Shown: positions 24,519 through 28,195 of the stretch, one piece after another | Numbering within the stretch: the stretch's first letter is position 1 | Layout of the letters: the number at the start of each line of letters is the position of its first letter | DNA from: an uncultured Planctomycetaceae bacterium | GTDB taxonomy: Bacteria; Planctomycetota; Planctomycetia; Planctomycetales; Planctomycetaceae | Length of the DNA: 64,000 nucleotides | Direction of reading: 5' to 3' | Assembly: GCA_913031625.1 (NCBI GenBank) | Contig: CAJWGB010000006.1 | Coordinates: 1-64,000 of the forward strand | Notes under the pieces: generated by a model | Told to the model about the DNA's origin: nothing | The model's input: the letters and a program-made list of their open reading frames with translations, nothing else | Databases searched by the model: none | Position numbers and translations under genes: made by a program

Positions 24519-25262
24519 ATGATCATTGGCAAAATCTGGCGTTCGATTGCCGCTCAGTTCAATAAGCTCGCCAACTACATCTGGAAAGTCGACCCAATCG
24601 CTCAGATGCAGTACGAATATGACCAGGCCGTCGAACAGCTCAAGGCGGGCAAAGAAGGACTGGCTCAGTATCGCGCGCTGGTCGAACGGGTCTCACGCCA
24701 GGTGGATGAAGATCAAAAGCACGTCAATCAGCTTTCGGCTCGCGTTAAGGCTTATCTGAATGCCGGGGACAGAGAAAACGCGTCGCGGTTTGCTTTGGAA
24801 CTTCAGAAGGCCAAAGCCTCGCTTGAGGAGAACACCAGGCAGTTGGAGATGCATGAGAAGGCCTACGACAACAACGTGCGCAAGATCAAGCACGCCACAA
24901 GCAAGGTGGGCGAAATCAAGGATCGCATCAAGAAGTACGATGCGGAAATCAAAATGAGCCGTGCGGAAGCTGAACTGTCCGAGCTGGCAAGCGCCTATGA
25001 CTTTGATCTGACCACTGACCTTGGTCAGATTGAGTCCGTTCTTCAGGAAGAGATCGACACGAACCGCGCCAAGGCTCGTGTGGCAGCCGACCTGTCAGAA
25101 GAAGGCATGGATGTGATCGAAAAAGAAGCCGCAGCCGAAGCAGCCATCGCAGAAGATGCGCTGCGTCAGTTTGAGATGGACATGGGACTGATTACACCTC
25201 AAACCGCCAACATTGAGGAAACCGGCAAGGATCTGGGACCGGCACAAACAGAAACAAACTGA
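24519..25262 (+). CDS. PspA/IM30 (Vipp1)-like protein
   Basis: IWRSIAAQFNKLANYIWKVDPIAQMQYEYDQAVEQLKAGKEGLAQYRALVERV... long helical protein, PspA-like organisation; ATG at 24519. Confidence 0.7.
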   Translation: MIIGKIWRSIAAQFNKLANYIWKVDPIAQMQYEYDQAVEQLKAGKEGLAQYRALVERVSRQVDEDQKHVNQLSARVKAYLNAGDRENASRFALELQKAKASLEENTRQLEMHEKAYDNNVRKIKHATSKVGEIKDRIKKYDAEIKMSRAEAELSELASAYDFDLTTDLGQIESVLQEEIDTNRAKARVAADLSEEGMDVIEKEAAAEAAIAEDALRQFEMDMGLITPQTANIEETGKDLGPAQTETN

Positions 25263-25290
25263 TTCGCCTGAACCTTCTTTGCCAGAGATC

Positions 25291-27060
25291 ATGTCAAAAG
25301 CAGGACTCTCAACCAGTCCGGAACTGCCCGACTGGTACCCTGACTGGGCGCGGCAGCTTGCCGAACAGTATTTCTCAGGAAATGCTTGCTTCTTTGTTCT
25401 TCACGGCAACGTGAATGATCTGATCCCGTGCCCCCGGGGAGATTCAACTGAGTTTGTCAGCCTGCCTCGATTCCTTGGTGAATCACTCTTTGGCCGTTGG
25501 GAACTGGTCCTGCAGCACAACCTGAGCAAAGGACTTCGTGCACTGGCCGGAGAAAATTCTGAACGGCATCAGGAAATGATGCGGAAGCTCACCGCCATGC
25601 TGGGCGAGTTTCGCACCTGGTCGCGAAATGCTGATGACCTGCTGCTCACTCTCGATCAAATGATCGAACGCTTCCTGCTGAAGGAAGATCCCGCAGAACG
25701 AAGCCGGCTTGCCGTCATCTTCGACTATGGTCAGTACCTTGTTCCGCCTGGTGCCGCCGTTCAGATTTCAGGAAGCATCGCATCAAGGCTCGTCCGATTC
25801 CTTGACTGGGCCCGCAATCCATATATCCGACGAGTCAACATGGCCTTCTGCCTTGTCTGCGAGAGTCTTTCAGATGTCAACGAGCGACTGACACAAAGTC
25901 CATTCGTATCAACAGTCGAAATTCCAATGCCCGACGAAGCTGCTCGTCGACAGTTCGTTTCGTCTCGGCACAGCGATACTGCCGAACCTTCCGGCAAGAA
26001 CAATCTGTCAACGCAGGAACTGGTCAGCAACTCAAATGGCCTGAGCCTCCTGAGTCTGGAACATTTGCTGGTTTCAGCCCGACAGAGTGGCGGTGTTTCC
26101 AGTGCCCAGTTCCGATCTCTGAAGAAGTCTGCGATTGAACAACAGTGTGCGGGCTTCCTCGAGTTCGTTGAGCCAAAACACACACTGGATCTGGTCGTCG
26201 GTCACGAAGCAGCCTGTCATCGACTGCAGGAAGACGCCCGTCTCATTCGCGACGGACATCTGGATGCAGCGCCCATGGGATACCTGGTCTGCGGCCCTGT
26301 TGGTACTGGAAAGACGTTTCTGGCCGAATGCTATGCCGGCTCGATTGGTATTCCGTGTGTCAAACTCAAGAACTTTCGCAGCAAGTATGTAGGAGAAACT
26401 GAGGGCAATCTGCAGCGAGTACTGACAGTGCTCCGCAGCCTTGGACCAGTGATTGTTGTGATCGATGAAGCAGACGCAGCACTCGGAGACCGCAACCAAA
26501 GCGGAGATTCCGGCACCAGTGGTCGAATCTTCTCGATGATCGCCCAGCAGATGGGGGACACTCGATACCGGGGCAAAATCATGTGGATGCTGCTCACGTG
26601 TCGTCCGGACCTGCTGCCCATCGACCTGAAGCGACAGGGACGGGCCGAGGTACATATCCCACTGTTTTATCCGGACAGCAGCGAAGAGATTCTCGCGATG
26701 TTTGAGGTCATGGGACGCAAGAACGGAATTCCGGTGCAGACAGAAAACCTGGAACTGGATGAACGTCATTCAGAACTCTCAGGCGCAGATATCGAGAGCG
26801 TTGTTCTGACGGCACGACGTAAGGCGCTCGTCGCTGGTCGGACAGAGATTGAGTCCACGGACATTGAAACGGCCCTGAATGAGTTCATTCCCTCCGCCCA
26901 GGGACTTGAAAAGGACATGCAGGAAGTCGCAGCGGTGCTTGAATGCACGCAGATGGACTTCCTGAATGACGAATGGAAAGAACAACTGGATCAAGACGGT
27001 GGACGAGCCAGCCTGCAGCAGCAGTTGACTCAGATGCGCAACCTCGTGGAACAGCTTTAA
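25291..27060 (+). CDS. AAA+ ATPase with degenerate N-terminal AAA-like half and active C-terminal AAA module (Ycf46-like architecture)
   Basis: C-term Walker A GPVGTGKT, Walker B VIVVIDEAD; N-term FVLHGNVNDL, LAVIFDYGQYL without a P-loop; ATG at 25291. Confidence 0.85.
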   Translation: MSKAGLSTSPELPDWYPDWARQLAEQYFSGNACFFVLHGNVNDLIPCPRGDSTEFVSLPRFLGESLFGRWELVLQHNLSKGLRALAGENSERHQEMMRKLTAMLGEFRTWSRNADDLLLTLDQMIERFLLKEDPAERSRLAVIFDYGQYLVPPGAAVQISGSIASRLVRFLDWARNPYIRRVNMAFCLVCESLSDVNERLTQSPFVSTVEIPMPDEAARRQFVSSRHSDTAEPSGKNNLSTQELVSNSNGLSLLSLEHLLVSARQSGGVSSAQFRSLKKSAIEQQCAGFLEFVEPKHTLDLVVGHEAACHRLQEDARLIRDGHLDAAPMGYLVCGPVGTGKTFLAECYAGSIGIPCVKLKNFRSKYVGETEGNLQRVLTVLRSLGPVIVVIDEADAALGDRNQSGDSGTSGRIFSMIAQQMGDTRYRGKIMWMLLTCRPDLLPIDLKRQGRAEVHIPLFYPDSSEEILAMFEVMGRKNGIPVQTENLELDERHSELSGADIESVVLTARRKALVAGRTEIESTDIETALNEFIPSAQGLEKDMQEVAAVLECTQMDFLNDEWKEQLDQDGGRASLQQQLTQMRNLVEQL

Positions 27061-27087
27061 AGACCAAAACCTTGAAAGGGATTCGAT

Positions 27088-27375
27088 ATGTCACGCACCA
27101 GCTGGGTTGACCCGGATAACAATGAACCACTGATCGGAGAACATGCACAAAAGCTCGAAAGCTTCGTTAAGGCATTTGAGGACGGTCAGATCACTACCGA
27201 AGAGCTGTCGAACCAGGAATCCGACCTCGTAAAACTGCTGAAGAAAGTGGAAGAGTCACTCAACGACGAACAGCACGCTCTGGTGACAGAATTGTTGTGC
27301 GAACTTACTGCATACGACATTATGCATTTCACCCATGAATTCCAGAAGGCGCGCATCGCCGAGTTCCGTGGGTAA
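27088..27375 (+). CDS. Hypothetical 95-aa acidic helical protein
   Basis: MSRTSWVDPDNNEPLIGEHAQKLESFVKAFEDGQITTEEL..., 27 nt after the AAA gene, same strand. Confidence 0.7.
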   Translation: MSRTSWVDPDNNEPLIGEHAQKLESFVKAFEDGQITTEELSNQESDLVKLLKKVEESLNDEQHALVTELLCELTAYDIMHFTHEFQKARIAEFRG

Positions 27376-27430
27376 CCTGCGAATCAATCCGGCATAGCCC
27401 CCTGACGTCTGCCTTCGTAAGGAGAGACCC

Positions 27431-28195
27431 ATCAAAGGCCCAAACCTTCAGCACGAACTTCGAATCCAGCGACAGTTTCGATGCCCACGATGTAACCGTA
27501 CTCTCAGAGTCCGAGGGTCAGTGACTTCACGTGTCTGTCGATGCAGCGACCCGCCGGAACAGATGCATGTCATCGATATGCCACCCGTTCCGGAGTTCGA
27601 TGCGACTCCATTTGTGAATTATCAGACCGACGAATTCACAACTCCCACTGAGACAGAACTCGTCGAAACACTTCCCAACATGCCTGTCTTCGAGGTACCG
27701 GCAGAGAAGCCTCTTCGACGCGGAAAAGGGTATTTGAGAGCTGAGATCAGCGAGAACGAGGCGCTCGCACCAACAGACGAGCAGGAAGACTTCGGAGCAG
27801 GAATTGACGAGGAAGAACCTCAGCGTCTCACCGAAGATGTTTCTTCAGAGATGACGTCCGACAAAGTCAGCGAACCAGCAGCAGCAACTGAGACTGATTC
27901 AGACAGGTCACAGGAGGATAAGCCCGGGAAACGTCGACGCCGACGGCGAAGACGAAAACCGCGCGGAGACCGGTCTGATGACACCCGGTCGGAAGGGGAC
28001 GGCACAGAAGACAATTCGAGCCCTGCAGGAAACGGTTCCGAAACAGAGGAAGAAGCCGCAGAGGGTGGCGATCAGCCAAAACGAAAAAAGCGACGGCGAA
28101 ACAGACGGCGACGAGGCAGAGGCAAGAGCGACGGATCCGAGGGGCCATCATCAGGCGACAGCCACAGCGGATCACCGTCCGACACAGCCGGCTAG
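27431..28195 (+). CDS. Zinc-ribbon protein with acidic middle and Arg-rich low-complexity C-terminus; start codon uncertain (possible AUC at 27431; ORF track uses GTG 27521)
   Basis: Frame open from 27398 after TAG at 27395; encodes FRCPRCNRTLRVRGSVTSRVCRC upstream of the tracked GTG; AAGGAG at 27419-27424; C-term KRRRRRRRRKPRGDRS, KRKKRRRNRRRRGRGK. Confidence 0.65.
   Translation: MKGPNLQHELRIQRQFRCPRCNRTLRVRGSVTSRVCRCSDPPEQMHVIDMPPVPEFDATPFVNYQTDEFTTPTETELVETLPNMPVFEVPAEKPLRRGKGYLRAEISENEALAPTDEQEDFGAGIDEEEPQRLTEDVSSEMTSDKVSEPAAATETDSDRSQEDKPGKRRRRRRRRKPRGDRSDDTRSEGDGTEDNSSPAGNGSETEEEAAEGGDQPKRKKRRRNRRRRGRGKSDGSEGPSSGDSHSGSPSDTAG

Follow-up and report, generated by a model that had tools for sequence, protein, structure and literature searches.

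The window analysed here is a stretch of 64,000 nucleotides (nt) of contig CAJWGB010000006.1, part of the draft genome (6.7 Mb, 444 contigs, 96% complete) of an uncultured Planctomycetaceae bacterium. Its plus strand carries a cluster of genes for a divergent PspA/IM30-like protein, a tandem AAA ATPase and a helical protein of 95 amino acid (aa) residues. A partnership between the PspA-like protein and the ATPase is well supported by comparison of genomes. We give an even chance to the further proposal that they constitute a bacterial ESCRT-III-like protein and its ATPase, in which the ATPase would grip the C-terminal tail of PspA to disassemble or remodel its polymer. PspA/Vipp1 proteins are known to assemble on membranes into polymers of the ESCRT-III type, and classic AAA rings whose pore loops are aromatic are known to unfold substrates as they thread them. 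A preliminary description of this DNA had listed four adjacent plus-strand open reading frames (ORFs) separated by short gaps; the coordinates are as described, with gaps of 28 nt (PspA to AAA), 27 nt (AAA to 95-aa ORF) and 55 nt (95-aa ORF to zinc-ribbon gene), and the first three genes are confirmed as a cluster. Operon structure, here and in other genomes, was deduced from the order of ORFs. The features are as follows.

24519..25262, plus strand: AAA-associated PspA/IM30-like protein, 247 aa (PF04012, Vipp1/PspA profile match, tail motif)
25227..25241, plus strand: codons of the K-D-L-G-P tail motif, PspA residues 237-241 (from the alignment; K237 and G240 nearly invariant)
25291..27060, plus strand: tandem AAA protein, 589 aa (Pfam AAA, structure model, residue survey)
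27088..27375, plus strand: 95-aa all-helical protein of no known family, directly 3′ of the ATPase gene in relatives
27431..28195, plus strand: zinc-ribbon, Arg-rich protein with an apparent ATC start, outside the system (unlinked in sister genomes)

The association was surveyed in 294 genomes of the phylum, with thresholds of >250 bits for the ATPase clade and >190 bits for the PspA clade and a limited number of candidates scored per genome; most of the genomes compared in this work are draft metagenome-assembled genomes. The ATPase clade was found in 43 genomes, the PspA clade in 45 and both in 42, far above what chance would give, while four genomes hold one alone (Fisher p ~4e-46, uncorrected for relatedness and with thresholds chosen after the scores had been seen). 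The three genomes possessing only PspA are 79-82% complete. Since both genes are kept on different contigs in at least ten genomes, their co-occurrence is not just a by-product of adjacency. All 26 loci of this ATPase clade in the window's family have PspA directly upstream, and the linkage anticipated in the preliminary description is thus conserved in related genomes. Beyond the family, PspA is present in 62 of the 80 cross-phylum loci found in named GTDB genomes, and the pair occurs in records named Planctomycetota, Acidobacteria, Myxococcales, Gemmatimonadetes, Hydrogenedentota and Elusimicrobia, that is, in at least six phyla. Horizontal acquisition or contig contamination, suggested by the lack of a match in 16 same-family genomes (E≤1e-20), is ruled out by the presence of the system in all eight sampled genomes of the same genus and in about 20 further genomes of the same family. 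Apparent fusions or long ORFs at two loci (L055 and L070) proved to be upstream extensions of the reading frame.

Taken singly, the window's PspA-like protein scores 31.1 bits against PF04012 (E=2.3e-7), which is below the curated cut-off of 33.9. As a family, 31 of 33 members match PF04012 (E≤0.001; best 3e-20), and positions 2-192 of the family profile match Vipp1/PspA chains in the PDB (E=1e-13), indicating homology of the helical core. Because of these family and profile matches we regard the first ORF as a divergent PspA/IM30-like protein, although the single-sequence cut-off is narrowly missed; the identity originally assigned to it therefore stands at the level of family and structure profile, but not at that of the single-sequence PspA_IM30 hidden Markov model. 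The window's genome encodes two further PspAs, both above the PF04012 cut-off. Phylogenetic analysis separates 11 of 12 other PspAs from all of the ATPase-associated ones by a long, fully supported branch; the twelfth (L142) has a very long branch and its placement is uncertain.

A further characteristic of the ATPase-associated PspAs is a variable linker followed by the sequence K-x-[LMI]-G, usually with an additional P, which in the window reads K-D-L-G-P. This tail is found in 64 of 70 non-redundant PspAs adjacent to the ATPase gene, in 15 of 16 ATPase-associated PspAs that are unlinked, and in one of 12 other PspAs, where shuffled tails lead one to expect 2.6, 0.7 and 0.5, respectively; among the cross-phylum loci 61 of the 62 PspAs possess it. 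A short motif that persists behind a linker which is not itself conserved usually marks a binding tag. Since the ATPase is nearly always present with the tail, we surmise that it is the most economical binding partner. To our knowledge the motif is not one of the known MIT-interacting motifs (MIMs). That it might nonetheless play in bacteria the part of the ESCRT-III MIM, as a linear tag through which a dedicated ATPase with a dead N-terminal domain, together with a small helical adaptor, grips the PspA polymer and disassembles it, is a tentative proposal which we rate somewhat below an even call.

Two alternative conserved tails, ...LPE-COOH and RQ[KR]I[AS]E, each accompany a distinct ATPase clade. 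The first is seen in a divergent PspA/AAA clade of Planctomycetota loci (L078-L086), the PspAs of which end exactly in ...LPE at the C-terminus; those of L078 and L086 both do so, and the LPE tails thus correspond to one ATPase clade. This ending could likewise be a recognition tag. Upstream, some loci of the clade also encode a further OmpA-domain protein together with a membrane protein (F17 and F18).

The ATPase contains a single Pfam AAA domain (residues 332-457) in a two-part layout, with an N-terminal D1 (approximately residues 1-290) devoid of a P-loop and a C-terminal D2 (approximately 300-590) which carries Walker A (GPVGTGKT, 335-342), a pore-loop aromatic residue (Y366), Walker B (DEAD, 392-395) and two arginine fingers (R448 and R451). 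D2 thus has every hallmark of a classic substrate-threading AAA domain, namely Walker A, Walker B, two arginine fingers and an aromatic pore loop 1. In all 78 aligned members the first 260 residues are without a P-loop, whereas Walker A residues G335, G338, G340 and K341, Walker B residues D392 and E393, R448, R451 and an aromatic residue ([WYF]) at 366 are retained. A D1 motif, G-N-x-x-D (G39 in 78/78; D43 in 75/78), occupies what may be the former P-loop site. Given this residue survey, D1 is degenerate, though conserved, and D2 has the look of a working threading motor, as the preliminary description had read them. The full length of the AlphaFold2 model (mean predicted local distance difference test, pLDDT, 91.5; predicted template modeling score 0.87) can be aligned with the tandem AAA rings of p97, Rix7, NVL and AFG2. 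In two genomes (G331:C74 and G390:C753; loci L117 and L122) the ATPase matches in two pieces some 75-100 bases apart within one open frame, which represents an insertion in D1.

Directly downstream of the ATPase the 95-aa protein is found in 22 of the 26 loci from the window's family (two of the other four break off at a contig end) and in 49 of the 80 cross-phylum loci, including those of Acidobacteriota and Myxococcota. Identity to the window copy ranges from 41 to 63% among 25 aligned members. Its model is almost entirely helix, with four predicted helices (pLDDT 90.6), and neither a fold match in the PDB nor a family at a meaningful score was obtained, so that its description as a helical protein of no family is upheld. 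Matches to GvpG, VPS28, hemerythrin and PDC models are weak or far below cut-offs and have no structural counterpart, and these assignments were rejected. Other lineages do without the small protein, some having a protein of 200-250 aa (F8) in its place. Since it is absent from many loci which keep PspA and the ATPase, it cannot, to judge from this distribution, be needed everywhere.

In the mechanism we propose, the PspA-like protein would, by analogy with its family, polymerize on the cytoplasmic membrane, and the tandem AAA protein would assemble as a hexamer of two rings, of which D1 would lack catalytic activity and probably serve for docking, while D2 would be active and bear the aromatic pore loops. 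The ATPase would dock on PspA, take the K-x-[LMI]-G(P) tail on its flexible linker into the D2 pore, and pull out subunits, such that the polymer is disassembled or remodeled in a manner like that of Vps4, though the enzyme is not Vps4. The 95-aa protein would be a core co-factor in many Planctomycetota, Acidobacteriota and Myxococcota, presumably modulating docking, and the whole might serve in membrane stress. In the full operon described below, a solute-binding protein with a peptidoglycan-binding OmpA part and an ATP-binding cassette (ABC) transporter would be joined to this core, which would probably connect the wall with membrane maintenance or with the assembly of the transporter; in the window's genus the locus would have been reduced to PspA-AAA-small. 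The Vps4/ESCRT-III-like idea put forward in the preliminary description fits these data. If, in addition, the tail is the MIM counterpart proposed above, this would be a complete bacterial ESCRT-III/ATPase cycle, driven by an ATPase other than Vps4, in six or more phyla.

The genes found between or after those of the core in relatives encode a solute-binding protein fused to OmpA (NMT1/phosphonate-binding and OmpA domains; PBP/OmpA), an ABC permease, an ABC ATPase and F5. The latter is a protein of 280-300 aa with a hydrophobic N-terminus, a coiled-coil appearance and no Pfam family, which lies directly upstream of the ATPase in full operons and may be its membrane anchor. Examples of F5 are found at the following positions.

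L056:5059-5901
L039:5026-5910
L202:13894-14778

In 36 of the 80 cross-phylum loci PspA, PBP/OmpA, permease, ABC ATPase, F5 and AAA are all present, 25 of these also having the small protein. Such loci, and the transporter genes that stand between PspA and the AAA gene in many phyla, invite the explanation that the ATPase acts as a chaperone in the assembly or quality control of the complex of the ABC transporter and OmpA-binding protein, PspA being the membrane platform and not the substrate. We consider this unlikely, while according it appreciable weight. In the window's genus, where PspA-AAA-small stands alone, in members of f12 and f48 and in other lineages, PspA and ATPase genes are adjacent and the locus holds no recognized transporter gene; nor did the window's draft genome yield a close ABC ATPase or a PBP/OmpA match, the lack of the latter perhaps reflecting loss or a gap in the draft. 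A transporter link is kept alive by seven sampled sister genomes which retain the PBP/OmpA gene elsewhere, in one instance together with the permease.

A second possibility is a sensing or regulatory pair, in which PspA inhibits the ATPase until membrane stress frees it to act on another target, much as proteobacterial PspA keeps the AAA+ protein PspF inhibited. Co-occurrence and the conserved tail are compatible with any stable complex, including this one. It is improbable in our estimation, as the ATPase is of the classic substrate-threading type with aromatic pore loops and matched no sigma54-activation family and no Fis-type helix-turn-helix or other DNA-binding family in Pfam or NCBIfam; the absence of sigma54-activator features noted in the preliminary description is borne out by these searches.

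It is also conceivable that the linkage reflects no more than an old shared operon, with proteins that do not act on each other and a PspA tail that binds something else. The evidence assembled here is all drawn from sequence, and common descent would account for the tail type as well. This explanation must, however, contend with the near-perfect co-occurrence even where the genes are unlinked and with a tail kept in very divergent PspAs whose linkers are not conserved, and we hold it to be quite improbable. An anti-phage defence module, suggested by weak AAA-level matches to IetA models, is hardly credible and is rejected, because these matches are restricted to the AAA core (NCBIfam IetA/IteA, 62 bits of a 510-bit cut-off), the neighbors read from their translations as housekeeping genes (thioredoxin-, IMP dehydrogenase- and rRNA dimethyladenosine transferase-like) and the system is conserved throughout the same-genus sample.

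Several observations count against the preferred interpretation of the ATPase as a remodeler of the PspA polymer. Full operons place the transporter as near a neighbor as PspA, which need not then be the substrate. One genome (G061) with the ATPase and the small protein gave no PspA match, and distant relatives of the ATPase reside on Paenibacillus plasmids with no annotated PspA nearby. The window ATPase shows no MIT domain or other Vps4-specific feature, its N-terminal half being a degenerate AAA. The PspA tail could bind another partner, and the shuffles overstate its significance, the motif having been defined on the very set that served for its count, with a permissive pattern and among related proteins.

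The zinc-ribbon gene, which the preliminary description had counted as the fourth member, is a real, conserved gene but is ruled out as part of the cluster, since it is not linked to it in sister genomes. It appears from comparison of its 5′-ends to start with ATC. The corresponding codon is ATC or ATT (I-K-G-P... in translation from this codon) in all eight sampled genomes of the genus; two other genera also show ATC/ATT, and several other genera have ATG; a purine-rich Shine-Dalgarno sequence of the GGAG type precedes the ATC/ATT codon in most sampled genomes, and in three of the eight no in-frame ATG, GTG or TTG occurs between the upstream stop and this codon. The ORF listing begins the gene at GTG 27521, and standard gene callers would miss the ATC start. 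Like that of infC, such a conserved AUU/AUC start is a hint of initiation factor-dependent control. A scan of the plus strand of the locus for promoters and terminators revealed nothing exceeding shuffled sequences. On the minus strand, a near-consensus sigma-70 promoter (TTGACA-17-AATAAT, 11/12) at window positions 24361-24333 points away from the cluster, towards a divergent thioredoxin-like gene.

The core association and a remodeling role for it had already been put forward by Ravi et al. 2024 (PMC11237479), who describe operons of PspA with a double AAA+ protein, the N-terminal copy of which is inactive, and propose ATP-dependent membrane remodeling; longer versions contain, as an option, ABC ATPase, permease and PBPB-OmpA genes. 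The window has the same pairing of a PspA gene with a two-AAA protein inactive in its N-terminal copy, and resembles the published system, as far as the passages on it go, in the gene pair, the extended operon of relatives and the proposed role. It differs from the longer operon in that the transporter genes, present in many relatives, are missing at its locus. The main text of Ravi et al. names no Planctomycetota, and its passages on this system report neither a tail motif nor a 95-aa partner; the window is likened to their examples AEY64321.1 and OGG56892.1 by description. The present work adds counts of co-occurrence across genomes, the motif in the PspA tail, the family of the small protein, the survey of D1 and D2 residues and the split seen in the window's genus. 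No experiment on the PspA/double-AAA system was found in the literature searched.

The full-length tandem D1-D2 fold is shared with p97/Cdc48, Rix7/NVL and AFG2, from which the window ATPase is distinguished by a D1 without a P-loop and, in comparison with p97, by no visible N domain. A dead N-terminal AAA-like half followed by an active AAA is also the layout of family A4, which is probably Ycf46-like. Judged by A4, the resemblance to Ycf46 seen in the preliminary description seems to hold for the layout only: the profiles of A4 and the window ATPase align over both halves (465 columns) at 21% identity, the P-loop and N-half signature differ, and cyanobacterial plasmid proteins are found by A4 and not by the window ATPase, making them separate families. 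PspA stands beside an AAA+ protein in the proteobacterial PspA-PspF system too, but PspF is a sigma54 enhancer-binding protein, whereas the window ATPase is a tandem classic AAA without such a domain.

With the ESCRT-III/Vps4 machinery of eukaryotes and archaea (CdvB/CdvC) the system has in common an ESCRT-III-superfamily polymer protein that bears a conserved motif at its C-terminus and has a classic AAA ATPase dedicated to it. Vps4 possesses an MIT domain where the window ATPase has a dead D1 instead, and because it lacks the former and has the latter, the enzyme is not a Vps4. Whether there is any ATPase that does for Vipp1/PspA what Vps4 does for ESCRT-III was a question left open by Liu et al. 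2021 (PMC8281802). Since the locus contains a dedicated ATPase together with candidates for the recognition tag on PspA and for the adaptor, the question of a bacterial ESCRT-III/Vps4 machine becomes testable with peptides and point mutants.

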